Assembly: GCF_000499845.2 (NCBI RefSeq)
Contig: NC_023759.2
Span: 40,922,672 to 40,986,671, forward strand
Source: Phaseolus vulgaris
Taxonomy: Eukaryota; Streptophyta; Magnoliopsida; Fabales; Fabaceae
DNA: 64,000 nt
Direction: 5' to 3'
The position numbers were made by a program, and so were the translations under genes. Position 1 is the stretch's first letter. Every line of letters starts with the position of its first letter. Positions 32,046 to 63,016 of the stretch are shown in pieces. The notes beneath the pieces are model-generated. The model searched no databases and was not told the DNA's origin. It saw nothing but the letters and a program-made list of their open reading frames with translations.

Positions 32046-32185
32046 CACTACAAGACAAACATGAAATAGAAACCAATTTTAGAGACAAAAAATAATTAGT
32101 TGTTATAGTAACTAAATTAGATATCATTTAACTATTTAACAAAATAATATAATTTATAAACTAATTTAGAACTTCAACACATCGC
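32046..32185. mobile_element. Truncated end of a CACTACAAG-type element
   Basis: CACTACAAGACAAACATGAA at 32046, followed by ATAATTAGTTGTTATAGTAA, closely matches the inverted right arm of the MITE at 42371-42738. Only this end is present. The young copia element lies about 100 bases further on. Confidence 0.65.
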
Positions 32186-32283
32186 AGAATAAAATTTCTA
32201 AAGCAAATTTGCTTTAAGGTGGAGAGAATGTGAACTCAAACCACTTTTTCCTTTGACTTTGAAGGTAAGTGCAACATCGATTT

Positions 32284-32540: not shown

Positions 32541-32594
32541 ACCGATCTTGGTGCCCGGACAGCCTCTCCATTTTTATCCCCTAAATAAAAAATC

Positions 32595-35500
32595 ATGTCT
32601 GGCAAAGAAGGCATCAGTAACGAGTCCGATAGAAACCTCGTACAACACTTCAGTGCCGAACAAATTCAACAATTGGCAAGGGCTATTTACTCGCTCAACA
32701 ATAACGGTAAAAGTGACACGTTTGTTAGCTCTGCAGGTCTGCTTGCCCATAACTCCTCTTCTAATTCTGCTTTTACGAAACCATGGATTTTGGATAGCGG
32801 AGCAACCCATCACATTGCATCTGATTCACAATTTTTCACACACACTTCATCATCATTTATTTCAAATGTTAATCTGCCCACAGGCTCAACTGCGCCCATC
32901 TCATCTACAGGCACAATTAAATTCAATGACAAAATCACTCTCAAAGATGTTCTTTGTGTTCCTTCTTTTAATTTAAATCTCATGTCCATTAGTAAGATAA
33001 CCAGTTCACTAAATTGTTGTGTCGTTTTTACTCCACATGGTTGCGTTTTACAGGACTTGGCTACAGGGAGGATGATTGGCTCGGGTAAACAACACGCAGG
33101 CTTATACTACATGTCCCCTCTTCCAAACCAAGCCCACGCATCTCAAATATCGACCGATCCTGATTTATGGCATAAGCGCCTTGGAAATCCTTCTCCAGCG
33201 TGTCTACAACTTGTATCTTCCCTACTACCTATCCCTATCAGTAAAAATCTCATTCCCATTCATAATCATTGTAGTATTTGTCCCAAAGCTAAACAGACAA
33301 GGCTACCCTTTCCTTTAAGCACAATAAAATCTCATTCTCCATTTAATCTATTGCATTGTGACATTTGGGGTCCTCATAAAACCCCAACTCATTTTGGAAA
33401 ACGTTTTTTTCTCACTATAGTCGATGACTATACTAGATGTACTTGGCTATTTCTTATGAATCACAAATCTGAAACCCAACATCTCTTAGAGTCATTCATT
33501 ACATTTGCACAAAATCAATTTCAGGCATCTATTAAAACCATCCGTGTTGACAACGGACTGGAATTTATTTCAATGTATGATTTTTTTCTCAAAAAAGGTA
33601 TTGAATGTCAACGCACTTGCGTTTACACTCCTCAACAAAATGGGGTAGTAGAACGCAAACATAGACATGTTTTAAACACACCACGAGCCCTCCTATTTCA
33701 GTCCAATTTACCATTAGAATTTTGGGGAGAATGCGTTTTAACCGCCACATATATCATTAATCGCTTGCCATCACCTTTACTAAAAAATAAATCACCTTTT
33801 GAGCTACTATATAATCAACCACCTTCACTTTCTCACCTAAAAACTTTTGGTTGCCTTTGTTACGCAACTGTTGTTTCACCTAAGCAAAAATTTGATCCGC
33901 GTGCCCGACAATGCATCTTCATTGGTTATCCTCACAGTCAAAAAGCATACAAATTATTTGATATAGATGCAGGCACTTTTTTTACAAGTCGGGATGTCAT
34001 CTTCCATGAAAGTGTTTTCCCATTCTGCCAACAGTCACAGACACAATCCTCACCTCCATTACAAGGTATTTTGCCCACTATTGACATTGACTTACCCACT
34101 CCTGTCCAACATTCACTCGATCAACCTTCTTCTCTTACTCATCACAATGCACCTGAACCTCCATCAAACCAACCTTTTTCTCCTACTCGTCACAATACAC
34201 CTGAACCTCCATCAAACCAACCCTCTTCTCCTACTCGTCACAATGCACCTGAACCTCCATCAAACCAACCTTCTTCTCCTACTCGTCATAATACACCTGA
34301 ACCTCCAGTAGACCAACCTTCTTCTCCCATGCCAAGAAGTTTAACACCCATTACCAAACCTTCTCCAACCGACCTTCCTGTTCGACGATCCAGTCGCACA
34401 TCAACCCAACCTTCCTGGCTTCAAGACTACGTAACGGGATCCCAAACCAATCATTCGACCACTGCCCAAGACCGACAGAATGGAACCAGGTATCCTATGC
34501 ATCATTTTCTTTCTAATTCACGATTTTCTTCTACACATAGTGCATATCTTGCTAACATCACAGCCACCAAAGAACCTCACACTTATGCTCAAGCTATCCT
34601 TGATCCAAATTGGCAAAAAGCAATGGACGAAGAGCTTTCCGCCTTGCAGCTAAATCAAACGTGGACCTTGACATCGTTACCCGCTGGACAGAAACCCATC
34701 GGATGCAAATGGGTTTATAAAATAAAGTACAACTCAGATGGTAGCGTCGACAGATATAAGGCGCGCCTTGTCGCAAAGGGGTACACTCAGATTGAAGGTG
34801 TCGACTATTCTGAAACTTTTTCACCAACAGCAAAATTAACAACTTTGAGGTGTCTCCTCACCATTGCAGCAGCCAGAAATTGGTTTACTCACCAGCTAGA
34901 TGTGCAAAATGCCTTCTTACATGGCACATTGCATGAAATTATTTACATGGACTTGCCACCCGGACATCATCGACAGGGGGAGAACATTGTATGTCGACTC
35001 AACAAATCCCTTTATGGTCTCAAACAAGCATCTCGAACATGGTTTTCAACATTTTCTCATGTGATTAAATCTGTAGGATTTCAACAGTCCAAGACAGATT
35101 ACTCTCTATTCACAAGACAAAATAACTCATCATTTACTGCCCTTTTGATTTATGTGGATGATATTCTTCTGACAGGAAATGATTTGACAGAAATTCAGCG
35201 TGTTAAAGATTGTTTATTACAACAATTTCGCATTAAAGATCTTGGAGACCTAAAATATTTTCTAGGGATTGAATTTTCCCGTTCCAAAGCTGGTATTTAC
35301 ATGTCCCAAAGAAAATATGCGCTTGATATTTTGCAGGATACGGGACTCACAGGTGCTCGTCCAGACAAATTTCCAATGGAACAATACCTAAAACTCACAC
35401 CAGACGATGGAGAGTTATTAAAGGATCCAGTCAAATACAGGCGACTCGTGGGACGACTGATATACCTCACGGTTACTCGGCCTGACATAGTATTTTCGGT

Positions 35501-36107
35501 TCGGACCCTAAGTCAATATATACAGGATCCACGGAAACCTCATTGGGATGCCGCAATTCGAGTCCTAAAGTACATCAAAGGATCACCAGGACAAGGATTG
35601 TTATTGCCATCCGAAAACAATCTGACATTGACAGCTTATTGCGACTCAGACTGGGGAGGTTGTCAGACAACTCGGAGATCAGTATCTGGATATTGCATTT
35701 TTCTTGGTTCATCTATTATCTCATGGAAGTCAAAAAAACAGACAAACGTATCAAGATCATCAGCGGAAGCAGAATACCGCGCAATGGCCAATACTTGTTT
35801 GGAGATAGTTTGGTTGCGATATCTGTTGCAGGATTTAAAGGTGTCATGTAACTTGCCAGTTCAACTTTTCTGTGACAATCAAGCGGCATTACATATAGCA
35901 GCAAACCCAGTATTTCATGAACGCACAAAACACATTGAGATAGACTGCCACATTGTGCGAGAAAAATTACAAGCTGGGATAATCAGTCCTTCATATGTAC
36001 CGACACAGTATCAGCTCGCAGATATTTTTACGAAGGCATTGGGCAAGGAACGATTTTTGACGCTACGACACAAGTTGGGGGTTCTTGATCTTCACCTACC
36101 AACTTGA
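32595..36107 (+). CDS. Copia pol polyprotein (protease, integrase, RT, RNase H), intact frame
   Basis: 1,170 residues without a stop. The first 60 residues resemble only the tail of gag (FSAEQIQQLARAI). Aspartic protease: WILDSGATHH, catalytic DSGA at 67-70. Integrase zinc region: H193..N198..C226..C229; the second histidine of the usual HHCC is asparagine (LWHKRLGNPS for LGHPS). Integrase core D256 (CDIWG), D319 (VDNG), E353 (VVERKH). A Pro/Ser-rich linker with four 16-residue repeats lies at 516-579. Reverse transcriptase: ARLVAKGYTQIEGVDYSETF, LDVQNAFLHG, and YVDD at 853-856. RNase H: YCDSDWGG at 1015-1022 and SSAEAEYRA. All other catalytic residues looked for are present. The start is the first ATG in frame after the primer site. 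Confidence 0.95.
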   Translation: MSGKEGISNESDRNLVQHFSAEQIQQLARAIYSLNNNGKSDTFVSSAGLLAHNSSSNSAFTKPWILDSGATHHIASDSQFFTHTSSSFISNVNLPTGSTAPISSTGTIKFNDKITLKDVLCVPSFNLNLMSISKITSSLNCCVVFTPHGCVLQDLATGRMIGSGKQHAGLYYMSPLPNQAHASQISTDPDLWHKRLGNPSPACLQLVSSLLPIPISKNLIPIHNHCSICPKAKQTRLPFPLSTIKSHSPFNLLHCDIWGPHKTPTHFGKRFFLTIVDDYTRCTWLFLMNHKSETQHLLESFITFAQNQFQASIKTIRVDNGLEFISMYDFFLKKGIECQRTCVYTPQQNGVVERKHRHVLNTPRALLFQSNLPLEFWGECVLTATYIINRLPSPLLKNKSPFELLYNQPPSLSHLKTFGCLCYATVVSPKQKFDPRARQCIFIGYPHSQKAYKLFDIDAGTFFTSRDVIFHESVFPFCQQSQTQSSPPLQGILPTIDIDLPTPVQHSLDQPSSLTHHNAPEPPSNQPFSPTRHNTPEPPSNQPSSPTRHNAPEPPSNQPSSPTRHNTPEPPVDQPSSPMPRSLTPITKPSPTDLPVRRSSRTSTQPSWLQDYVTGSQTNHSTTAQDRQNGTRYPMHHFLSNSRFSSTHSAYLANITATKEPHTYAQAILDPNWQKAMDEELSALQLNQTWTLTSLPAGQKPIGCKWVYKIKYNSDGSVDRYKARLVAKGYTQIEGVDYSETFSPTAKLTTLRCLLTIAAARNWFTHQLDVQNAFLHGTLHEIIYMDLPPGHHRQGENIVCRLNKSLYGLKQASRTWFSTFSHVIKSVGFQQSKTDYSLFTRQNNSSFTALLIYVDDILLTGNDLTEIQRVKDCLLQQFRIKDLGDLKYFLGIEFSRSKAGIYMSQRKYALDILQDTGLTGARPDKFPMEQYLKLTPDDGELLKDPVKYRRLVGRLIYLTVTRPDIVFSVRTLSQYIQDPRKPHWDAAIRVLKYIKGSPGQGLLLPSENNLTLTAYCDSDWGGCQTTRRSVSGYCIFLGSSIISWKSKKQTNVSRSSAEAEYRAMANTCLEIVWLRYLLQDLKVSCNLPVQLFCDNQAALHIAANPVFHERTKHIEIDCHIVREKLQAGIISPSYVPTQYQLADIFTKALGKERFLTLRHKLGVLDLHLPT
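34140..34331 (+). repeat. 48-bp tandem repeat inside pol, four copies
   Basis: Units start at 34140, 34188, 34236 and 34284 and encode HNxPEPPSNQPSSPTR-like 16-residue blocks, so the frame is kept. The last copy is diverged (PPVDQPSSP). It lies between the integrase and RT domains, a tolerant linker. Confidence 0.9.
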
Positions 36108-42370: not shown

Positions 42371-42738
42371 CACTACAAGAAAATCATAAAATAAAAACTA
42401 ATTTTTAGAAAAAAATAATAATTAATTATTATAGTGACTAAATTAGAGACCATTTTAGAGATTAAAAAAATTTTGGTTTTTAAATTAGTTTCTATTATTA
42501 AATGGTTTCTAGATTGATGTGTAATTAGCAACCAAGGTTTTTGCTACCAATTAAATTTGGTAGCAAAAACCTTGGTTGCTAATTAGATACCAATTTAAAA
42601 ATCATTTAACAATAATAGAAACTAATTTAAAAACCAAAAAATTGTTTAGTCTCTAAAATGGTTTTTAATTTAGTCACTATAACAACTAATTATTTTTTTA
42701 TCTAAAATTGATTTGTATTTCATGATTTTCTTGTAGTG
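42371..42738. mobile_element. Palindromic CACTA-type MITE (368 bp)
   Basis: Ends are CACTACAAGAAAATCA and its exact reverse TGATTTTCTTGTAGTG. Almost the whole element folds on itself; the centre has 28-bp perfect arms (42523-42550 and 42557-42584, TAGCAACCAAGGTTTTTGCT) around a 6-base loop. The flanks ATA and ATT agree at two of three bases, so the 3-bp target duplication is imperfect. No coding capacity. It shares its terminus with the large element at 53614-57673. Confidence 0.85.
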
Positions 42739-48587: not shown

Positions 48588-49266
48588 TTGATATAATATC
48601 TTTAGGAAATATTGTATTTATAGATTGTGATAGAGGATTTATCTATTTATGATGTTTTATTGAGTTGAACAAGTAAAAGTATGTGATATTTATTTTAGGG
48701 TGCCGTAAAGGATTGGAAAAACCTAAAATATTCTCAATTATTATTTTATATTTCTTGCTAATAAAAAAAAAGTAAAAAAAAAGTGATTTCCAAGTATAGA
48801 ATAAGATTATTTGATTATGAACATCAAATTTCCATTTAACTTTTCCAAACCACAATACAACTTCACAAATAAAGAAAATGTAAATTTAATATTTTAACTA
48901 AATATATGTCTCTCTTGTAAATGTAAATGCAATCTCAAATATTAACAATACAAACAAAAGTCTTATTCTATTAAATCATCACCTCTGACAGATACATAAA
49001 CAATATATATACAAAAGAAAAAAAAGATAAAACTAATGTATGACAATATAATAAACATAGATTAGAACTTATACTGTTCAATCAAAAACCAAAAAGAAAA
49101 CAGTGGTAACATCATAATTGTTCCGAGATATAGGAGCCATGGTAGAAGCATGCTCATCTAATATAACCTAACCATTATAACAACATCCAATGGACAAGAT
49201 GGCTAACTGAGATGACACATGCAAAAAAAATTGTCCAAAATAGTAATAGTAAGAGGAGAGACTCAC
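48588..49266. other. Spacer left of the UBC fragment
   Basis: I searched here by eye, on the minus strand, for the next RAD6 exon (TFKLTLQFSEDYPN) and did not find it. Confidence 0.5.
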
Positions 49267-49536
49267 CTCCATTCCAAGGAGTATCATCAGACAAGAAAGC
49301 AAAAATTTCTTATCCATTCATACTTTAAAAAAGTGGGGAGGAAAATTAAATAAAATGTAGTGACTATCTTATATAAGGAAAAGGCACAGTGCATCTTCTA
49401 TCCAATTCAACTCACCCAAATATGATAGCATTCCACAACAGTTGTTATGTTGAGGGGCACCATTGATTTCTTCAAGTGGGTCCTGTTGCAGCCTCTTCAA
49501 ATCTCTCATCAGCCTCTTTCTAGCAGGAGTCCACAT
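49267..49536 (-). pseudogene. RAD6/UBC2-type ubiquitin-conjugating enzyme gene fragment, first two exons
   Basis: Exon 1 (49536-49416) reads [20 protein letters not shown] and GAPQHNN, close to plant UBC1/2/3 (RAD6 type, a nuclear E2 that ubiquitinates histone H2B); the usual start is [16 protein letters not shown]. After GAPQHNN about four bases are missing, and the expected LWNAVIFG follows in another frame before a good GTGAGT donor. Exon 2 (about 49267-49300) reads SDDTPWNG with a GTGAGT donor, but its acceptor AG seems lost. The catalytic-cysteine exons are not found. The piece is therefore a truncated copy, with introns kept, so it arose by DNA duplication, not retroposition. Confidence 0.82.
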
Positions 49537-50716
49537 TGCAACCACCAAGAAAAACTAACTGCCACCAGAGAAAACATAAAAGACTTCAGTTTTCTTTTCA
49601 GCAACAACAAAAAGTGGAGGTAAAACATAGTTCACCACTATATATATGCATTTGAATATATAATTCGACAATATAAGTGGCAAAATTTTCACAATCATTC
49701 CCACGACAACAACTAATTCTAACTACCATTATAAAAAATTAAATTCTCACTGGTCCCATATTAGACCTTGATCTGAAATATAACAGCAAATCCAAAATTT
49801 AAAAAAATGGGAATTTTGAAGGAATATTGAAAGGGGACTGATGAATATCCACATTCTGTACCAAACATCTACTGTTTACGCCATAACAAACGCAAATTAA
49901 AACTAAGAAGATAATGAAATGATTAAAAAGCGAAGTAATTGAAAGTGGAGGACAAAGGATAAGAAATTAAGTTACCCGATGTGTGTGAATGAGTCAGAAT
50001 GATGGTGCGATAGAAAAAGCAAGAGCAGTGAAAGGATGGTGGGTTATGGGATGTGGGATCCACGCCAGTTGCTTAGTTACACACAATCTTTTGAGGTTTT
50101 TCTTTAGGGGTGGCTGAGGAAGCCTTTCAGAATGTCCTATACCAAAATCTTTCATATATATTAAGAAAGAAGTCCACAAGTCAAATTTAATGTAAAACGT
50201 GTTTAGGCTGTATGAGTTGAACTACCTCTGCTACTTCATTTACTTTATACATTTTTTATTGTTCATAATAAAAAAAAACTACTGTCGACGACAATGAAAA
50301 CGTTTGGCTAGGGTTCAAGCAAAATGTGCACTACATTAATCAAAGTTTATAAAATGATGAGCAACTAAGAGCTTGAAACAGAAACTGTTGTCCTCGATGA
50401 ATTTTGAACCCATAAAAATATAAACTGATTTTGTATAAACACTTCTTTTTCCAACAGCTGTAAATCAAAGTCACTGATAACCCCATATTGGAGGACATAA
50501 ATCCAAGCAAGCATGTGATAATCACATTTGCAGAGAATAAGAGAAAGAAAGAGTTGAATAATTACACACAAATTAAGGACGTGTATTCGTGACTTGAGTA
50601 TGCCTACCTGCTAGTGCTAGCTGATCCAATTCTCAACCAATTCAACATAGCTGTTTGTTGCAATCCCAGTTATTGATTTACTTGAGGATCTGTGCTACAA
50701 ATGAACAAAGTAGGTT
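49537..50716. other. Spacer between the UBC fragment and MIR166
   Basis: No protein gene is seen. Part of it lies downstream of the MIR166 hairpin and may belong to its primary transcript. Confidence 0.5.
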
Positions 50717-50860
50717 GGAGGGAGATTGATGAGCATGCAGCTCGGGGGAATGAAGCCTGGTCCGAAATCACTCGGAAAAAGTCTGTGTTTGAGATGGATT
50801 AGAATGAATGAATGATCTCGAACCAGATGACATTCCCCTGAACTTTTGATGAATGCGAAT
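50717..50860 (-). ncRNA. MIR166: MIR166 microRNA precursor
   Basis: The minus strand at 50765-50745 is the complete 21-nt miR166 (starts TCGGACCAGG, ends CATTCCCC) with no mismatch to the conserved plant sequence as I know it. About 50 bases upstream on the same strand, at about 50838-50817, lies the complementary star arm (GGGGAATGTCATCTGGTTCG). The two arms pair with the few bulges usual for this family, around a loop of about 51 bases (50766-50816). The mature RNA is on the 3' arm, as in all MIR166 genes. miR166 guides cleavage of class III HD-ZIP mRNAs (REV, PHB, PHV types), which set leaf polarity, meristem and vascular patterning. Outer hairpin limits are estimates. The loop sequence should identify the MIR166 paralogue. 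Confidence 0.95.
50745..50765 (-). ncRNA. MIR166: Mature miR166 (3' arm)
   Basis: 21 nt starting with U, as AGO1/AGO10-loaded miR166 does. Five G residues on the plus strand (50744-50748) mark its 3' end. Confidence 0.95.
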
Positions 50861-50943
50861 GCATGATAAAGAGGGTGGAGAAGGAGAGAAATTGGTATAG
50901 TTTTTTACATGATCATGCCATGCATTATTTTAGCTGTGGATGT

Positions 50944-50951
50944 CCTTTATA
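50944..50951 (-). promoter_or_regulatory. Possible TATA box of MIR166
   Basis: The minus strand reads GTATAAAGGAC about 100 bases upstream of the star arm. A start some 30 bases downstream would place the hairpin close to the 5' end of the primary transcript. Confidence 0.4.
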
Positions 50952-53610
50952 CACGTAAATTTCAGACCAGATTCTTTCCGGGGCCATGTGATGTGATTAT
51001 TTGGAGTCCACTTTCTACACTCCTGTTTCTTGCTTTCACGCGCACCACTTTCGTTAACAACAACACTTGTTTCCTCAAAATTAAATCATTTTCTATTCCA
51101 ACGAAGTTAAAACTTTCTCTCCAATATTTATCTGTTACTGCTAGTCCCATCAACCTTCACCATCTACATTGGATTTTTTTTTAAAGGTAATTTAATTTTA
51201 CAAAGTAATAAAAGTATTTCATAACAAAACATGTTGTATAGGAAATAAACTTTAATTGAAAATAAGAATTACATTTTTTTAATATTTTCAAATTTAGGTG
51301 TCTTTTGTTCATATTATATTCTCAACTTAATTTTGATTGGACGAAATTATTAACATTGAGATATTATTGGAATGATTATTTTTTATTATTGTTAACCATT
51401 TTTTATATACTAATGTTGATAAGACAATTTTTTTTATTTAAATTATTAAGATTATTTTTGCTATTATTATAAATCATTGTTGTCATTTCTTGTATGGTTC
51501 TCTCATTCTATGTCCAAAAATGTTTTTTTACGGGAACTAGATTTATTTTATTTGTTATTCTTTTGTTGATATATACCGTGAATATTTTTATTATTGATAC
51601 CAATATTATTTTCTGTCAATAGTTTATTAGAATTATTTTTCTATTGCTAACTAGGAAAGTTTTCAATCAATATTAAAAAAAGAAATTTTGAAAATATTTT
51701 TTAATTAATATTGATCGAGTTATTGAAAAAAAAAACTCCAACCAACAATGTTGAATAAATAATCTCGATTGCTGTTAACTTAAATAATTATGATCAATAT
51801 TATCAGAAAACAATCTCAATCGACATTGAGAAAAAAAATTGTCAATATCATTAAAAAAATGAGCTTTAACCTAAAAAAACATCAACCAAGATTCATTGAA
51901 TAGATTCATCAATATTTATATTTTTTAATTATTAATAATTATTTAATACTTAAAAATAATTTTATTTGATGATAATTGAAATATTTTATATCAACTAAAA
52001 AATTAAAATTATTTTATTCAAACATAATATTTAATATAAAATAAGATCAATTTAAATTTAATATATTTAAATATGTCATCTTATCCAAATCCTGTCCGTC
52101 CCCATGTAAAAAGATTTCAGTTTTGCATTTAAGAGCTATTTGGTAGAATCAATAATCACTACGAAGATTAGTTTTTCTGGTATATTTTTCTAGCTGTATA
52201 CAAAGCAAGGCGATTATAAAGAATAAAGTTAATTAATCATACCATTTGAACTAATTATCCACCTTGGAAACTACATTATCGAATAAAATAGTACCTAATT
52301 TATTGGGTTTGATGGGATACCCGAGTTTAAAATTTAAATAGAGGTCTCCCTAGACTCAAAAAAATTGCTTTGGAAGTTAAGTATCATTCCATTAATTTAA
52401 TGATATTTTGTAATGCCTTGAGATTCTATGTTTTTAAGGGTTTTGACCTTCCTTTATTCTCCCCTCTCAAGTAAAGGAATTCACTTTTGCTTGCCACTAA
52501 TGTGAATAGAAGATTGTGAATATGCCAAGTTTGGAACACACAAGTTTAATAAAGATTGGTTTAAAAGTGTATATAATATATGTGTGTGTGTAAAAAGGGG
52601 AGAGTAACAGTGTATGGAGGAAGAAATAGAGCATGAAAAGTTGCAAAGAATTAATTAAATAATGGATAAACTAGTGGTTAACAAGACATAACAGAAGAGG
52701 AAAAAGCAATGACTATAAGATGATTGTTCCAGCTTTAATATAGAAGCCAGTGTTCCAAACTTCAAAGCTGAGATCTTGCTGCAAGACTTGTTCAAGGTAT
52801 AAGACCTTTTATTGCTTTTTATGTGCAATTCATCTTCGATTCACCCAGTGTTGCTTCAATTTAAAATTCTTGAACACATGAGAATTAAAACCATAGTTAT
52901 TGAATATGTGAAGTGTGGTAAAAAAAAACTCTGGCTTAAAATAATACACCACGTGAACGAATAGAGAAGTAAAGTTTTGATAGGAAATTTTTGTTGGTCA
53001 AAAATGAGATTTTGTTAGTGATTGAAAGTGGGGCGACAACAGTTATCATTCATGCAATGCTTTGTAGAATAAAGCTTTTTTGATGTAATTCCAAGAGCAA
53101 TGGATAAATCTAACACCAAACTAGCCCAACAAAAGAGTTGGGGGAAAAAATCATAATCTGGTTGCATGTATGATTAGAAATCATGTTGGGAACCAACCTA
53201 AAAGTGAAAACGCACTTTAGTATGGAACTTCATTCTCACATTTCAAGGATCTTCACCTAAAAAACTGTGATCCTATTAGTAAATTCTGTCAAAGGTCCCA
53301 ATAATTGAAAACTCTGCTAAAAGAGAAATTCTTAACTTGTTAAATACTTTTTCTTATTGTATGGTACTCTTCCCATTATTATTATTATAGACTATTTTTA
53401 ACTCGGAAGTTCTTTATTTATTTTTCTTCTTTTAACTTGTAAACAGTGCAATCCAGTGTAAATAGTATGTCCTGTGAGTTACTTACTGCTAAAATGAATA
53501 CTTGTGTGGGTTTGGTTTAGGCCATGCAACCTATTCCTAAAGCATATTTATGCAGCAATCTTGACAGTGTATTGAATCTTCTTATTATGTGGTTATTGTT
53601 TATTTATAAG
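50952..53610. other. Long spacer without recognised genes
   Basis: I see no gene. The part near 51000-51170 may hold MIR166 promoter elements. The rest is AT-rich with no clear repeats. Confidence 0.5.
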
Positions 53611-54469
53611 ATTCACTACAAGAAAATGTTGTAATATAACTAATTTAGAAATTAAAAAAAAATAGTTTCTATAGAAACCAATTTAGATACTATTTTATAA
53701 ACTAAAAATTATTGGTTACTAAAAAGGTATCTATTATTAATAAAAATTATAATATAATTAGATACTATATTTTTGGTAGCTAATAATAAAAATAAAAATA
53801 AAGTTTTTTTTAGAGATATTTTTTTAATCTCGTGTTAAGATGTAATTGGAAACCATTTTTTTAGTCACTTTTAATTTAATTTAGAAACTAATTTTTGGTC
53901 TCTAAAAATAATAAAATTATACTAATTTTTTAGTTTCTAATCATCATATAATTTAGATACTTAAATTTTTAGTCACTATTATTTAAATCTAGATACTAAT
54001 TTTAGATAATTAAATTTTATAAAATTAATTATTAATTTTTAATTTATAAAATATTTTAAATTAATATGAATAAATTTACTAAACTATTATTTTTAGTATA
54101 ATATTAAAATAATTAATATTAATTTAAAATTACATTTAAAATAGTATTTTAATCTTTTAATTTTATTTAAACATAAAATTAAATTAATTATAAATTCAAA
54201 ATATTTTTTAAATTAAAAAAATTATGAATTAATTTAAATAGATATACATACTTTTTAAAAACTTATTTAATTTTTTTAAATATGAGAAAATATTCTGCAG
54301 TTTGAATTTCTAACGCTATTAGAAATAAGTACATTTTACTAATTTATTTAGAATTATTTTTCTTATAAAATATTTATAAATTTTATTTCAATAATAATTT
54401 GCAAGAAATTATTACTAAATTTGTTTTATTTAAGTTTGTATATATTTAAATGTTTTTTATATATTTTTT

Positions 54470-54970
54470 TAGAAAAAAATACTTTTTCTAAAATTCTACT
54501 TGATAAATATTTTTTTCCTCTCTTCTTCTTCTTCTTCAGTCGCAACCTTCCTTCACTCCACTCTCTGTTTCCTTCACTCCACTCTCTGTTTCCTTCCTAT
54601 TCACTCTCAATCTCAATCTCGTTCCTCTTTCTCAATATTGCTTGTTCTTGATTTCACTCTCAGTCTCATTCAATTGGTTCGTCTCACTATCTTGTTCTTT
54701 GTTCAAATCCAGGTAAGTCTCATTCTTCTTCTCCACACTGTCTCCTTCATCTACTTCACTCTCAGTTTCGTTATTCTTTATCACTGCCGTTCTCGTTCTC
54801 AATCTCGTCCAATTGGTTCATCTCACTGTCTCTTTCCTTGCTCAAGCTCAGGTAAATCATTCTCAATCTCTATATCTCGTGCTTGCGACTCGGAATATTG
54901 TCGGTGACGGTGCTCAAACGCAATATGATCTTCAGTGTCACAGGCTTCAAGTTGTTCGCACAATTAGGTA
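54470..54970 (+). other. Leader-like captured region with an internal duplication
   Basis: Pyrimidine-rich sequence resembling plant 5' leaders. A 21-bp unit (CCTTCACTCCACTCTCTGTT) is tandemly repeated at 54550-54591. A longer phrase (TCAATTGGTTCGTCTCACTA; CCAATTGGTTCATCTCACTG) occurs twice, each followed by a TCAAATCCAG/GTAAGT or TCAAGCTCAG/GTAAAT donor-like border (about 54715 and 54850). A short unidentified piece follows to 54970. The source gene is not recognised; it may be the first exon of the ZIFL or FKBP donor. Confidence 0.5.
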
Positions 54971-55083
54971 TGGTTTTTTTATTTTGATTTTATTTTTAGC
55001 AAGTTTAATGATTCTCATACTAGAGTTTCGATTGGGGAAATCTTTGCCCGTATACCTAATTACATATTGATAAAAATGTGGTA

Positions 55084-56210
55084 GGTTCTGTATTCATGCT
55101 TGGCAGATGTTTGACATCTTTGTTGTGGGGAGCTATAGTTGATCGCATTGGTCGAAAACCCGTAATACTTGCAGGGATCATTTCAGTGTAAGTATACATG
55201 TCAATGAACTGCATGCTTAGCTTTGAAGATTCCCATAATTATCAATGCTTACTTCATTTCAGTGTCATTTTCAACACACTATTTGGCCTTAGCAAAAGTT
55301 TTTGGATGGCTATTCTTACGAGATTTCTTCTCGGATGTTTCAATGGTTTTCTAGGACCAATGAGGGTATTATATCTTTAACTCCTACTATTTCACACTTT
55401 CTTGTTTTTTCCACCAGTACTTGGATACAAATTTTGAATGCATGTGTTGATTATAACTTCATTCTCTTTCAAACTTTCATTTCTACATTTTCTTGTCTAA
55501 CTACTTTATTTAACAAGCCTATGCCATTGAACTTTTTAGAGAAGAACACCAAGCTCTAGGACTGTCAACTGTAAGCATCACTAACTCTTTTACATTGTTA
55601 ATTCTTAGAACTGCATTTCCACAACAAGTCATGTTGTGATTGGTTTAATAATTGGCCCTTCATTGAGAGGCTATTTTGCTCAGGTACTATTCATATTCTT
55701 AGCCATCTGGAGTATAAGATAAATCTTGCATAAAGCCTTGAATTTCCATATGTTTATAAGATGAAATGTTTTGAATTGAAAGTATTCTGGTTTTCTGAGA
55801 AGGTTAACTGTTGAAATTCTGTATTTAATTGTAGCCAGTAGAGAAGTACCCAAATATTTTTCCAAAGAATTCCTTTTGGGATAAGTAAGTGGACTTTCAT
55901 ATTCAGTTTCTGTTTAAATTGCTTTATCATTTGGACCTATTTAGATAAACTTCTCCAGAAAATTAGTTTATGCCTGAATCATTTTTATAGAAGCTAGTAC
56001 AAGAAAACTTTTACAAATTAGATTAAGAATAATCTGATTTTTGCTTACTTATTATGTTTTTCTTTCTTATTTTATCTTCCTATAAGTACTCATGGAGAAC
56101 TTTATCCAAATAAAATCTTAATGATGTGCTGATTTTTATTTTCCAAACATAAATCATTTTGTAGGTTTCCATAGTTCTTGCCCAACCTCATAACATCAGT
56201 ATTTGCATTG
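55084..56210 (+). pseudogene. Captured ZIFL-type major facilitator transporter exons
   Basis: Six exon-like blocks, in gene order and bounded by AG..GT, match Zinc-Induced Facilitator-Like MFS proteins. They are: 55084-55187 (GSVFMLGRCLTSLLWGAIVD then RIGRKPVI, the MFS signature loop); 55263-55365 (VIFNTLFGLSKSFWMAIL, RFLLGCFNGFLGPMR); 55519-55571 (AYAIELFREEHQALGLST); 55610-55683 (IGLIIGPSLRGYFAQ); 55835-55884 (PVEKYPNIFPKNSFWD); 56165-56210 (RFP, stop, FLPNLITSVFAL). Introns are kept, so capture was from genomic DNA. A stop codon and a truncated C-terminal half show it makes no transporter. ZIFL proteins are vacuolar or plasma-membrane carriers linked to zinc, potassium and auxin transport. 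Confidence 0.88.
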
Positions 56211-56744
56211 TTAAAACCATGAAGAAGGGAGAGAAAGTGATTTTAAGTGTGAAGCCTCAATGTAAGTTGTCTGCTGATGAATTTAAGTGTAAATGCTTGT
56301 AATTCTTAATGTGGATGATAACCTTGTCATTTTATGGATTTAAAACATGGTTCTGATGTTTCCTTACCTGTTTTTGCATTCTTGTAGTGAAAGTAATTGG
56401 TAAGCTACAAGATGGTACTTTGTTTTTGAAGAAGGGTCATGATGATGAAGGGGAGCTGTTTGAATTCAAAACTGATAAGGGTAACTTGAAAAAATGTCTC
56501 AATGTTTTTCCCGATTCCCACTAAATTATTTATTAAGCTAGCTAATGTGAGTGTTTTAGGATTGAGCATAACAAGCAATTGATGGGTTTGACAAAGCTAT
56601 TTTGATTATGAAGAAGGGTGAGGTGACATTGTTAACTGTTGTGCCCCAGTATGGTTTTGGCTCATCAGAGTCTCAACAAGAACTTGTTGTGTTCCTTCTA
56701 ACTCCACTTTGTATTATGAGGTTGAGCTAGTATCATTTGAGAAG
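56211..56744 (+). pseudogene. Captured FKBP62/ROF1-type immunophilin exons
   Basis: Directly after the ZIFL piece, within one exon-like block, the sequence becomes VKTMKKGEKVILSVKPQ (56211-56261), part of a multi-domain FKBP. Next come 56388-56480 (KVIGKLQDGTLFLKKGHDDE, FEFKTDK) and 56560-56744 (AIDGFDKAILIMKKGEVTLL-like, VVPQYGFGSSESQQELV, then NSTLYYEVELVSFEK in shifted frame), each with a donor. This corresponds to the second-to-third FK506-binding domains of FKBP62/65 co-chaperones; their tetratricopeptide and calmodulin-binding parts are absent. It has frame shifts and no start, so it is not a working gene. A further unidentified piece may follow at 56866-56930. Confidence 0.88.
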
Positions 56745-57676
56745 GTAAGTTAATAAATAATCAATGATTTACAATTCTGCACTCATCTTGTGTTTCAATT
56801 TTCATTCTTTCATTCCTTTATCCATTGTTTGCGTTTGTTTCTTACTGATTTGTAACAATCTTTCAGTTCTAGCTTCCAAGACCGTCCTTGATTTGTTCCA
56901 GCCCAGAAGCTTGTGAGCTGCAAGTAGGCACAAAAAATGTAAATTCAATCAAGATAGGAATAGACTAAACTTTCTTGTACATATAACTCATGGATATTAA
57001 CAAAAGTTGAAAGTAGATTTCAAACTACGGCGAGTATCTTGAGTTTATGTGATTATTTTCTAGTTTCTACCACAATCTTAGTTCACATTCATAATTCATA
57101 AAAAAGTTATTTTGTAAAATTTGAAAAAAAAAATTGAAAAATTTCTCATTTATAACTATATTTTGATTCTGAAAATAATTGCTTTGAGTTTATGAACTTT
57201 TAAAATTAGTGAACTTGAATCTACAAATAAATATAAAATATGAAAGAGTAAGTAGTTAAATAAATAAAAAAAGAAAAAAAGTAGATGAATAAAATAATAT
57301 TTTATAATAAATTACATTATTTAGAAACCAATATTGTGACCATTTTTTTGGTATTTATATATTTGGTCACTAAATGAGTTTTTATATATTTTGGTCACTA
57401 AATTGGTTTCAATGAAATTGGTTGTTAATTTGGTTTCTATATAATTGGTCACTAAATTAGTTTCTATATATTTGGTCACTAAGTTGGTTTTTATTTAACG
57501 GTAACTAAATTGGTTTCTAAATTAGATTCTAAATTGGTATCTAAAATTAGCGACCATGATTTTAGCCACTTAGTGTTATTAGTTTCTAAATTAGTCTCTA
57601 ATTAAGTTAGTGACTATTTTTATCATTTTAGAAACCAAAAATTTAGTTTCTAAAAGCAATTTTTCTTGTAGTGATT

Positions 57677-60180
57677 CACCCACCTATAAGATTGAAATTT
57701 ATTTTTTTTTAAAAAAACTTGTTCGAATTTCATCTTTATCAAATTTAAATATCAGTAGATATAATTCAACCGTCCACTTACTTTTTTTTATTTTTCCATT
57801 TTTAAGAATTAAATTTTACACTTTTTTTTGCATTTTGATTACTTTCTTTAATATTGTGGGAAAGAGAGATACATGTATTCAATTAAAATTAGAATTTTAA
57901 AAAATTTAAAAGATTTTCTATGAAAAAGTATTGTGATGATTTGATCAAGATTTTAAATATTAAAAAAAACTTATGATATTCAACTATTTCAAATATACGT
58001 AGATCATAGTACTAACTTGAGTTTTGGAGTGCAATCGTAGGTATTTTCATCGGACGATCGGACATCACAGTTTAAGGAATGAGACTTAAAGGAATCTGGA
58101 GACCACTGACACGTCAACAATTGTGCATCCAACTACAGGTACTATTTGAGCCCCTAGCTCATACAAGTACAGATAAATATGTCAACATCAATTGGGAAAA
58201 AGCCTGGACAATGAGAATACATATTAACTTGCTCTAGCCTACACATTGCATGTTACTAATTAATTTTCAATGCATTTTGTCACTATATAAGTTGACCCAT
58301 TTTCAACTAAATCCCTCACTAATAATTTATAGAAAAATGTTACTTTGACAACTGCATAGTCAAAGACACCACTATACAACCTTTCAAATTTCTACATTTC
58401 CTTACATATGCACATATTTTAGTAAGAGATTATTTCTCCTTCTACTTTTAGTAGTTGTAATATGGAGCAATTCAATGTTGGGTAGTCAACACATCAAAAC
58501 TCTAATTTATATTGGTCAGGCAAAAGGAACATGGGGAGACAAAAACACATGTGAGCTGATACATGGAAATAAAAGAAACAACGAGGAATAAGGGTTTGGT
58601 GAAAGATGATTATTATGATAGAAGCCAATACATAATTAAATGTTTTTATCCCGAACTCGTTTGAAGTCTATTTTTCTTTTGTTTTTACCTTTGTATGCAT
58701 AATTACAAGTATTTCATGGAGTTTCCACAATCATCCATTTATGTTATCCCTAAGTGGCAGTCTTGACTATTGCATGAAGTTGTCTCTAACGATGAGTATG
58801 GTTGCACTTAGTTGCTACATGATATCGTGGTGGCTAGTCTTTTGTAGTAGATGTCAAAGTCAGGCACTACAACCATAAGAATGAAATTATCATTCCTACT
58901 TCTTTTGTTCATTGTGTAATACACAGATATGGACGCCATACTACTTATGCAAGATGTGGTTATGGGGTATGGGGCTTTCTGTGGCTTTGTCAAAATTGAG
59001 TGTGACCATTCACAGTTACCCCGAATGATATTGCTCCATTCATCTCAAACGTGCATGTGTATAGTGAGAATGTGAGGTATATTATATTCATATGGAATAT
59101 AGTTGTATGATTTTCAAAATGCACAACAAGGATGCATGCTTGGTTTGAACAAAAAGTCATGAAACCCTTAGAATGATAAGAATGAAGGAATTATTTTTCA
59201 AGAATCATTTGGGTTCCGGAAGCATGGTATAATGTTGTCCTGAACGGGCTATTCATGAGTGGTACAAGAAATTATTTATCTATACTTACACATTCATCAT
59301 TTACAAAAAGGAACACAAACTTACATCGTGAAGGATAAAAAAAATAATACCTTGAATCTCTCTGCGAGACAACCTTTGTAACTAATATTTTCGTGTATAT
59401 ACTCTTATGTTCTCATGCCTACTTATGTAAATTGGTTATAGAGAAAAAGAAAATGGGGATAAGCAGTTGATGAAAGGTTTTTGTCTCAAAACAGAAAAAT
59501 TTGATTTTTTTTTACGTAAATGGGTACGTCTTGTTTGGGTAACACGAGTTTATTCTTAAGAAGTCATCATCCCCAAACATAACTTCAATTCAGTACAATT
59601 TTTTTTGTTAAAAGTCATTAAGGCATAATACAACTTTGGTTCAATGGAGAAGACTAGAGAAATCATACTCATTGAGCACGATTTTGTTTAAAATGAATCA
59701 ATGTTGTTAAGGTTCTTTTTTGTAAAAGATGAATTCGATAGCGGTTTGACAACTTCAGTGTAAAACTAATACACAAAAGTCGTGCATTGGGGGTAATGTT
59801 CTATATATTCTTTTTACACTAAAGTCATCATACTCTTTACTATTTCTGTTTAATTTGAATAATGTCCTACCCCACCAAAGGAAGAATGCAATGAATTGTC
59901 TAGCCTACGAAACTGAGGCACATATGAAAGATCCAATTTATGGTTGTGTTGGTGTTGAACTAGAGGTTTGAGGTTTGTTTAACTGACTGTCTAGACAAAC
60001 ATGAGGCTTAGACCTAAGTTTTGTATAACAAATTGTCTAGATACAAGCTTTATGAGAACTAGAAAATAAAACTATTATATGAAAAACAGTAAAAAAAGTG
60101 ACCAACACATTAAGGAAACACCCTAGTTCTTTATATAGAAAACTAGGAGCACCTTAAGCACAAACACAAAGTGAACATAA
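57677..60180. other. Spacer without recognised genes
   Basis: Nothing with a clear identity on either strand. The part from 57677 to 58000 is AT-rich. The rest is of more average composition but broken by stops in all frames. Confidence 0.45.
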
Positions 60181-60400
60181 ATCTTGATGTTCTAAACTGA
60201 ACATGCTATACAATCTAGATGAAACACATTAGACAATCTAAGAGAACCTAAGGCTAGACAATCTTAATGGCCTCACACTAACTATATGATCTAAGTGCAA
60301 CACCCTAAACTGTCTAGATGGAACACACTAGACAGTTTAAGCAAACCTAAGGCTAGACGATCTAAGCGCCTCCACACACTATATAGTTTCATTTGTTCTT
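60181..60400. repeat. Diverged tandem repeat, about 99 bp x 2
   Basis: CTAGATGAAACACATTAGAC at 60215 recurs as CTAGATGGAACACACTAGAC at 60314. Both are followed by AACCTAAGGCTAGACRATCT and then a CACAC-rich block and a TATATGATC / TATATAGTT stretch. GTCTAGA / CTAGACA words continue on both sides (59980-60500). Confidence 0.75.
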
Positions 60401-61902
60401 ACTACCATATAGTTTGTTGACAGGTTGTCTAGACTGTCTTGTATATAACATTGATCGAACACACAAGACAATTTCGTATAAACAAGAAAGTCTAGCTAGT
60501 ATGTCAAAAGATTAGATGATTTAGTAAAAACAAAAATACTAGATTTTTTTTGTAGATGATATTTAGAGAGTCTATAAGAACAAAAAAAGTATAGTGTCCT
60601 CTTCTTTTATGTATTAGACGATCATCATCTTCTGTGCATTAGATTTTTTATTTTTTATTAATAAATCATATTTATTTTATTGTAAACACAAGTTTATTTG
60701 AAACTACAAATATTATTTTATTATATATTTTTAATTTTTAAATATATTTAAGATAAAATAAACTACAACATTTTATTAATATTTTTTTGGAATTTTCTCA
60801 AATTAAATAAAAACATTTTTTTCTATTTTTAAATATTTAATCCGTTATTGATATATATATATATATATTAATTTTTCATTTTTTGGTATTTATTTGGTTA
60901 ATTTAATTATGCTTTATTTTATTCAACATTTGAATTATTTCAATGGGTGTTGACAACATTTACAAAAATAATAGATACTGTAATTGTCATAGAATTTCAA
61001 TTATAAGTAATTCTTTACTCATTTTTATAAGTACTTTACATTTGTAATATTTATTTAGTAATATATTTTAATATTTATGTTATTTTTTTATATTTGATAT
61101 TGAAAAAAATTAAATGTGTTATTTTGATATTGAATTCTTGATAATATAATTTATAACTTTTTTAATTAATATTTGAGACATTGAACATATGGAAGTATGA
61201 ATATAATCATTACCAAATAGAGATGATGATAAAACACAAATTTCATAGTCAACAATAATGAATATGAACTTTTACTAAATAAACGAGTATAGGCAAATTG
61301 CATAGTGTTTTCTCATTGTCATCCTTATACAATAAACCATTTTTTTTTCAAGTGAAGAATACTTTTCTCATCCTATTTTTCAAAATTAATTTTGCTTTAT
61401 GTATTATTTAGATTGATAATTTCTTGCATGAAGTTGTTTTCTTGTCTTATCATCTAAATTTTTTTATTACAATTATGAGTAATAATACTTTTTTAGGTTG
61501 CAGAAATGGATTTTGTTAACAATATTAATATTAATGAAGTTGATGATGAAAATTTGGATGTTGAGTTGAGTAGTTAAAGTCTATTTTTCCGGTAAAGAGA
61601 TTAGAATCAATTTGTTGGAGAATTTTGGAAAGGACAGCTACAATGTTGTAATAATGTGTACAAATGTTATGGCTATGTGAGTCTATGTTTGAAACGTCAT
61701 ATCCCAAGAGAAAATTCAATTTGAAGATATTGCTCAAATAATTTATAAACATGCGAGGAATATTACATGTAGCCTACTTAAACTTGTTAAATTGGTATAA
61801 AAATAACTTTTTTTTAATCAGGTTAAAATATATAACTTTATTTATTCTTTATTTACATAATATATAACTTTCTTTTATAACAATTATAACCTTGAATGTC
61901 TT
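60401..61902. other. AT-rich spacer
   Basis: An AT run is at about 60850-60868. At 61507-61560 a short open stretch (MDFVNNINI, EVDDENLDVEL) follows a possible splice acceptor, but no family can be named. Confidence 0.45.
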
Positions 61903-63016
61903 ATAACACGTGGTTGGAGAAGTTTGAGAGGAGAAGGTAATTTTAAGAGGGGCTCTCTTTGGTGGAAAGATTTGAAGGAGGTATAGGCGTCAGAGGGTTG
62001 GGGGAGAAGTTTTGAAGATGGATTCAAGTGGTATGTTGGTAATGGAAATGACATTTCTTTCTGGGAGGATAGTTGGTAGAGTTGTGGTGCTCTAAAGGGA
62101 GTTTTTCCGCGATTGTTCTCTCTTAGTTCGGCTAATGATGCAAAGGTGGTTGAGTTCGGGTATTGGGCTAATGGTGTTTGGGTGTGGCATTTTGATTGGC
62201 GTAGACCCTTTTTCGTTTGGGAGAAGTCTTTGGCAGAGCAGTTGATTCAGTCACTGCAAGGGGTGAAGTTGGTCCTGGGAGAGGCGGATAATTGGGTTTG
62301 GAAGGTTGGGGGATGTCAATCTTTTCCAGTTAACTTTGTTAAGGAGGGACTGAGTAGGGGAGTTTTCTTCAGTCTATAGCATGTTGTGGAGGTGTAAAGC
62401 CTTGCCATCTGTTTTGTTCACTGCTTGGAGGGTGATGGAGAATAAGATTGCTACCAGGGGTGGTTTGGTAAGGCGTGGGGTGGTGGTTGGAAATTCTTTA
62501 TGTTGTTTGTGTGGAAATGAGGAAGAGTCTTCCAGTCATTTATTTTTCATTTGTGACTTTGCTTGGCGAGTCTGGATTGTTTTACATGGCTTGGTGTGCC
62601 GTTTTTTTTTACAAGGATCCAAGACAAACTTTTTTTCAATTCAGGAGATGTCAGGTTTCTACTTCGGAGGAGGTTGTTTGGGATACAATTTGAGTTGGTG
62701 TAGTGAGCGAAATTTGGAAACATTGGAACTCTGTCATCTTCAATAGGGGAGTGACAGATGCAGTAAAAGTGTTTGCTTTGGCGCAAGTAAATGTTTGGTC
62801 TTGGATTTACGCAAAGTCTAGTTGTGATCTCTTTCCTTACTCAAATTGGGTTCTAAATTCTTTGGACTGTATGAGGATGATCCGTTAATGTTTGTTTGCA
62901 TTCTGGTAGGCGATTCTAGTTAGGAGAATGATAATGTTATTTATGTATAAGGATTAGATCACCCCTAAATGGTTTCCATTTATTGATTTTTTATTGTTGA
63001 TAAAAAAAATAACACG
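61903..63016 (+). pseudogene. 5'-truncated LINE with zf-RVT end, poly-A tail and probable target duplication
   Basis: From 61911 the sequence encodes the C-terminal end of a plant LINE ORF2: FKWYVGNGNDISFWEDSW (about 62020-62073), the conserved WxVG.G..I.FW block; then VWVWHFDWRRPFF; then the zinc-binding region AWRVMENKIATRGGLVRRG and CCLCGNEEESSSHLFFICDF (62420-62570). Stops and frameshifts occur. It ends in ATTGTTGATAAAAAAA at 63001-63009. ATAACACG occurs directly before (61903-61910) and after (63009-63016), a probable 8-bp target duplication of a truncated insertion. Confidence 0.88.

Follow-up and report, generated by a model that had tools for sequence, protein, structure and literature searches.

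The window analysed here is the whole 64-kb stretch of DNA (64,000 nucleotides), a piece of which stands above, and our subject is a 4,060-bp element at positions 53614-57673. It is very probably a non-autonomous, gene-carrying CACTA element (a Pack-CACTA element) of a Phaseolus-lineage legume, and we propose an origin for it below. Between its ends lie intron-bearing pieces of two unrelated host genes, one for a zinc-facilitator-like (ZIFL) transporter and one for an FKBP62-type immunophilin, and in the tblastn map and translation the two are fused inside exons. A preliminary description of this DNA had already proposed a Pack-CACTA element of this length with CACTA ends and an ATT duplication. 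CACTA ends with matching flanks, host-gene fragments and the lack of a transposase match in Pfam bear that identification out.

Ends and target site

Perfect 13-bp terminal inverted repeats (TIRs), CACTACAAGAAAA, stand at both ends of the element, with ATT on either side and repeat-rich regions just inside.

53611..53613, no strand: target-site duplication, left copy ATT
53614..53626, + strand: left TIR CACTACAAGAAAA, perfect, 13 bp
53627..54213, no strand: left subterminal region, AT-rich, with TAGAAACCAA-type repeats (from repeat count and composition)
57348..57519, no strand: right subterminal tandem array, 6.4 copies of the 27-bp unit TTGGTTTCTATATATTTGGTCACTAAA
57661..57673, - strand: right TIR, CACTACAAGAAAA on the - strand
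57674..57676, no strand: target-site duplication, right copy ATT

CACTA (En/Spm) elements are moved by a TNP2-type transposase, and repeats near both ends are a feature of the superfamily. Sites of the TAGAAACCAA type, counted with up to one mismatch on both strands, number five in the left 600 bp (53614-54213; two forward and three reverse) and ten in the right 600 bp (two forward and eight reverse), so the feature is present at both ends of 53614-57673. Shuffle means were 0.04 and 0.03 per strand for the left end, and 0.03-0.08 per strand across both ends. The 2,860-bp middle (54214-57073) holds no such site on either strand, and the 1-kb flanks outside the element hold 0 and 1. The TIRs of the superfamily read 5'-CACTA...TAGTG-3' and are usually 10-54 bp long, according to the part of PMC4938662 available to us; the 13-bp perfect TIR lies within that range, and the ATT/ATT flanks agree with the 3-bp target-site duplication of the superfamily.

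The exact 13-mer CACTACAAGAAAA occurs four times in the window, whereas 100 dinucleotide shuffles gave a mean of 0.00. Two of the four belong to the 4,060-bp element, and the remaining two bound a 368-bp CACTA element at 42371-42738. The left subterminal region of the large element aligns with the ends of this small one. Inward of its perfect 13-bp TIR, the large element shows loose similarity, as a local alignment over about 180 bp. In a search for CACTA...TAGTG pairs at a spacing of 200-20,000 bp, with the same 3 bp on either side and no more than two mismatches in 13 bp, 53614-57673 was the only pair in the window with equal flanking triplets. When up to two mismatches are allowed, the window holds 12 end-like 13-mers, including the four exact ends, against a shuffle mean of 5.04, and 2 of 100 shuffles attain 12.

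Captured ZIFL and FKBP62 segments

The exon map combines the listed tblastn matches of intact relatives against the element with a table of splice sites.

54512..54967, + strand: CT-rich leader resembling a 5' untranslated region, internally duplicated (from composition shift and skew)
55085..55187, + strand: ZIFL exon piece 1 (SVFMLGRCL...GIIS), acceptor TAG, donor GTAAGT
55263..55365, + strand: ZIFL exon piece 2 (VIFNTLFGL...GPMR), acceptor CAG, donor GTATTA
55518..55570, + strand: ZIFL exon piece 3 (YAIELFREEHQALGLST), not in frame with piece 2 in this splicing model
55632..55683, + strand: ZIFL exon piece 4 (IGLIIGPSLRGYFAQ), eroded acceptor, start approximate
55835..55884, + strand: ZIFL exon piece 5 (PVEKYPNIFPKNSFWDK)
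56165..56209, + strand: ZIFL exon piece 6, truncated, FP*FLPNLITSVFA (tblastn E 1.1e-4 with PHAVU_011G189500)
56208..56212, no strand: ZIFL-FKBP62 junction, inside exons (tblastn map, translation)
56210..56261, + strand: FKBP62 exon piece 1 (VKTMKKGEKVILSVKPQ), end of the second FKBP domain, P. coccineus residues 217-233
56388..56480, + strand: FKBP62 exon piece 2 (LKVIGKLQDGTLFLKK...FKTDK), about 65 residues absent before it, phase retained
56560..56745, + strand: FKBP62 exon piece 3 (IDGFDKAILIMKKGEV...EVELVSFEK), damaged start, frameshift near 56691

The ZIFL segment, from 55085 to about 56209, consists of six consecutive exon pieces with their introns and corresponds in tblastn to residues ~86-225 of PHAVU_011G189500. 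Joined by hand, its exons match Pfam MFS_1 (E 6.2e-20); exon piece 6 was not part of the queries used in the Pfam, structure-type and protein searches. Among the best 120 of 1,448 protein matches, the closest relative by identity is Phaseolus vulgaris PHAVU_011G189500 (85-86% over 100% of the query), followed by proteins of Sphenostylis (84%) and Vigna (76-78%). Four proteins outrank it by E-value, yet they are 58-67% identical. From these comparisons, PHAVU_011G189500 is likely to be the donor gene of the ZIFL segment. The assignment of piece 6, with its tblastn E of 1.1e-4, was helped by position and phase, and the piece contains an in-frame TAG at 56172-56174.

At about 56210-56745, the FKBP62 segment covers residues 217-388 of a P. 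coccineus protein, minus about 65 residues. Its hand-joined exons match Pfam FKBP_C (E 3.9e-16), and the best solved structures are 3jxv, a 70 kDa peptidyl-prolyl isomerase (E 6.1e-50), and 3jym, a wheat FKBP (E 7.9e-50), both matching best over the third domain. FKBP62-type proteins of Glycine and Phaseolus head the protein search: among the best 120 of 1,169 matches, a soybean protein comes first by E-value (78%) and the P. coccineus protein is closest by identity (81%), each over 73% of the query, a coverage lowered by some 15 non-FKBP residues at the start of the queries; the matches fall within the true FKBP part. Over the fragment columns, 93 of 104 residues are identical to the P. coccineus protein. 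The segment stops at 56745, which is an exon end with GT next. Residues 234 to ~298 are absent, and the neighbouring pieces remain in phase with each other (VKPQ-LKVIGKL), a pattern that the loss of one exon between two introns would produce.

Both segments lie in the same orientation and both contain introns. Specifically, ZIFL piece 6 runs directly into GTTAAAACCATG of FKBP62 at about 56209/56210, and thus the two genes are fused inside exons. The joint contains no TIR and no TAGAAACCAA-type subterminal repeat (at most one mismatch, both strands). Two candidates for an internal TIR remnant at the joint were rejected: one 2-mismatch match, at 55995, is some 200 bp from the joint within the last ZIFL intron, and the other, at 56377, coincides with the acceptor of the FKBP intron. 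The ordered, intron-bearing fragments of two unrelated genes reported in the preliminary description are recognisable as ZIFL and FKBP62 with introns; that description needs amending in that the joint falls inside exons, some 65 FKBP residues are lacking and the reading frames are disrupted.

Splice signals and reading frames

The exon model has GT at nine of nine donors, the leader included, and AG at seven of eight acceptors, the exception being the eroded acceptor at the start of ZIFL piece 4. Because the borders were placed by hand with splice sites in mind, this count is not independent evidence. In other words, the claim that the captured exons keep their splice signals holds for these hand-placed borders and fails at ZIFL piece 4. 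Two resemblances between splice sites and transposon ends are probably coincidence: the right CACTA end, TTTTCTTGTAG/TG (57661-57673), could pass for a 3' splice site, and the acceptor of the FKBP intron, TTCTTGTAG/TG (56377-56389), resembles a CACTA end with two mismatches.

In the leader (54512-54967), an ATG occurs at 54925, and the GT at 54968 resembles a splice donor. Within 54548-54858 there is a 21-bp perfect tandem repeat and a pair of 62-nt units that are 79% alike, each with a donor-like GGTAA near its end. Pfam gave no match for the leader, possibly a piece of a third host gene, and none for the tail of the element (stretch 56746-57100). From the ATG, the leader would splice in phase to ZIFL piece 1 and the spliced model reaches its first stop after 96 codons; as a functional sign the phase match is weak, because chance alone gives it one time in three. 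The frame is lost at ZIFL piece 3, piece 6 contains its TAG, and in FKBP piece 3 the start is damaged and the frame shifts near 56691. These frameshifts and the in-frame stop make a chimeric ZIFL-FKBP protein unlikely, and a translated fusion was rejected as a candidate on the same stops and frameshifts. The element is probably inert at the protein level, and chimeric RNA or small interfering RNAs (siRNAs) from it are possible products. A retroposed origin of the gene pieces was likewise rejected, given the retained introns.

Lineage of the captured pieces and possible relation to pvCACTA1

Trees were built from the captured part only, with hand-picked legumes (22 of the 120 listed ZIFL proteins and 20 of the 120 listed FKBP proteins). 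In them, the P. vulgaris protein is the sister of the ZIFL piece (support 99/95) and the P. coccineus protein that of the FKBP piece (91/77), both pieces standing apart from Vigna. The fragment branches are longer than those of the intact Phaseolus proteins, at 0.081 versus 0.031 for ZIFL and 0.10 versus 0.0067 for FKBP. Together, the sister grouping and the longer branches suggest that the capture took place in the Phaseolus lineage and that constraint was lost afterwards.

The ends of the element recall pvCACTA1, described as a small, non-autonomous and very abundant CACTA family with long TIRs and WWW duplications; the available part of that study reports it from Phaseolus and not from outside the genus, and reports no large autonomous or protein-coding relative (PMC4938662). 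Three of the four pvCACTA1 primers have their best match in the window inside CACTA ends, with four mismatches each (at 32101, 42682 and 53892), and the match at 53892 is in the 4,060-bp element. Composition-shuffled controls equalled these three matches in 0/300, 0/300 and 2/300 trials. The fourth has its best matches, with six mismatches, outside CACTA ends. The ends of the element thus appear related to pvCACTA1, with membership in that family a candidate assignment. A pvCACTA1 copy is tabulated in the 11th intron of Phvul.011G189700, a ZIFL gene whose number is near that of Phvul.011G189500 (PMC4938662). Elements of this kind are thus known to insert in the likely donor region.

Neighbourhood of the element

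50740-50843, - strand: MIR166 precursor (Rfam RF00075, 75.6 bits)
42371-42738: 368-bp fold-back CACTA element, ends perfect over 13 bp, 86% identity to its reverse complement
32046-32200: single CACTA end CACTACAAGACAA, about 0.5 kb 5' of the open frame 32589-36107
~59852-59971, + strand: partial LOB-domain remnant (Pfam, profile 45-84 of 99, E 2.4e-06)

The left end of the element lies 2,771 bp upstream of the MIR166 precursor, and its insertion could touch the regulatory region of that gene. Pfam (E <= 0.01) found no domain in 49001-53613, a scan that genes without Pfam domains would escape. On the other side, in 57674-62502, it found only the LOB remnant, about 2.2 kb off, and a zf-RVT match below the cut-off. 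With no flanking Pfam domain except that remnant, read-through by a host gene is not indicated, with the proviso that genes lacking Pfam domains would be missed and that the MIR166 precursor stands 2.8 kb to the left.

The LOB remnant has stops around it and is another gene relic near the element. In size and shape, the element at 42371-42738 is like pvCACTA1. No partner was found in the window for the CACTA end at 32046-32200, and the neighbouring open frame 32589-36107 is one that we take to be of the Ty1/copia type. A PRA1-family protein of the window shares 92% identity with a cluster representative from Vigna unguiculata (clusters at 90% identity). Taking this together with the Phaseolus grouping of the captured pieces and the pvCACTA1 primer matches, we regard the host as probably Phaseolus or a near relative.

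Discussion

The Pack-CACTA assignment combines host coding DNA with the absence of a transposase: in a six-frame Pfam scan of the element, which would miss short split remains, the only matches were FKBP_C and a sub-threshold DUF3954. Several points weigh against it and against the history that we propose. The same scan also missed the split ZIFL exons, so that short transposase remains could escape it. The description covers one copy in the 64-kb window, and packFinder, in the published account available to us, discards singletons because they may be false positives (PMC8903248). Support for the FKBP grouping is moderate (91/77), and one Phaseolus protein underlies it. The small element 42371-42738 has unlike flanks, ATA/ATT. 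Finally, the CACTA intervals used in the control of the pvCACTA1 primer matches were fixed after the primer matches were known.

We suspect the following course of events. A TNP2-type transposase made elsewhere would recognise the ends of the element, assisted by a protein that binds the subterminal repeats, and the 4-kb unit would have inserted here in one event. Because introns are kept, the gene pieces would have been taken up as genomic DNA, probably after the split between Phaseolus and Vigna. They may have been joined by illegitimate end joining, through repair synthesis with a template jump or through the fusion of two neighbouring elements and a deletion across their inner ends. Either a template jump or an inner-end deletion would give an exon-internal fusion with no end sequence at the joint. 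The gene pieces have decayed since capture, and any effect would come from RNA, through siRNAs or through cassette exons of a read-through transcript, and not from protein. Both the mechanism of capture and the age of the element are what we infer from the DNA.

That neighbour fusion was the sole mechanism, with two CACTA copies flanking donor DNA and inner ends that have merely mutated, seems unlikely. Fusion of neighbours is a model published for Pack-TYPE elements, as presented in the accessible text of PMC8903248 and PMC13317346, and the intronic pvCACTA1 copy in Phvul.011G189700 (PMC4938662 Table 1) places such an element in a ZIFL gene. Counter to this, 54214-57073 contains no subterminal repeat at up to one mismatch, the joint is inside exons, and the two end-like 13-mers of the interior (two mismatches each) are those in the last ZIFL intron and at the FKBP intron acceptor. 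Merely mutated inner ends are not favoured, since there is no end sequence at the joint.

We are rather doubtful that the element is a transcribed chimeric locus, in which the leader would splice from ATG 54925 to ZIFL and on to FKBP and yield a chimeric RNA and conceivably a short ZIFL-like peptide or siRNAs acting on the parent genes. The donors and acceptors of the hand-placed model and the 96 open codons from leader into ZIFL would suit such a locus, as does the splicing of Tgm-Express1 exons into chimeric transcripts in soybean (PMC1947982, in the portion available). However, phase alone agrees one time in three by chance, the frame is lost at ZIFL piece 3 and the TAG at 56172-56174 follows. 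Moreover, every Tgm-Express1 transcript isolated in that account started from the promoter of the host gene, and internal initiation was considered improbable, whereas here Pfam found no domain in 49001-53613 and, rightward, the LOB remnant comes first. It is very improbable that the leader would start a ZIFL-FKBP RNA as a source of siRNAs against FKBP62 and the donor ZIFL cluster. If true, this would make the dosage of an immunophilin and of a zinc-facilitator-like transporter depend on a pvCACTA1-type transposon.

Very improbable, finally, is a chance junction of gene relics that happen to sit between two CACTA-like ends: the gene pieces are decayed and the window has another, unpaired CACTA end (32046), but four exact 13-mers against 0.00 expected, identical triplets on the only such pair, and subterminal repeats at both ends with none between tell against it.

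Comparison with known elements

A single insertion carrying two host genes thus remains our preferred reading, and as a class such elements are not new. The preliminary description was right that gene-capturing CACTA elements are known in plants, from Arabidopsis, maize and, as Tgm-Express1, soybean. It had also suggested that the pairing was new, which stands for the specific ZIFL-FKBP62 combination, where the novelty lies, but not for multi-locus capture itself. Coding DNA from several loci is reported for Pack-TYPE elements, and maize Pack-CACTAs hold the most distinct loci in the part of that survey available (PMC8903248). In the open-access literature, at the level of titles and the starts of abstracts, we found no capture of ZIFL and FKBP by a transposon. 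New here are the exon-internal gene fusion with no transposon-end sequence, the Phaseolus grouping and the pvCACTA1-like ends. The element adds a gene-carrying CACTA element with such ends from the Phaseolus lineage, and its mapped exon-exon fusion and likely donor PHAVU_011G189500 make it a concrete case for testing gene pickup.

The Pack-CACTA and Pack-TYPE elements of Arabidopsis and maize, as far as the text of PMC8903248 describes them, share with the bean element a TIR and a target-site duplication, no transposase and captured coding DNA; they differ in the genes carried and in the host. Likeness to pvCACTA1 lies in the CACTA ends, the WWW duplication, an apparently related end sequence (primer matches) and the Phaseolus lineage. 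Its six founders, however, are given as 330-446 bp long with 145-158-bp TIRs and no coding content (PMC4938662, in the part at hand), whereas the bean element has 4,060 bp, a 13-bp perfect TIR and captured genes, and in size and TIR it falls outside that family. Tgm-Express1, the CACTA element of the soybean wp allele, similarly has legume CACTA ends, intron-bearing fragments of several unrelated genes and usable splice sites; it differs in having five gene fragments in 5.7 kb, a location in an F3H1 intron and demonstrated chimeric transcripts (PMC1947982, as far as its text was available). The bean element has two identified genes and no host gene seen around its insertion, and is known from sequence alone.

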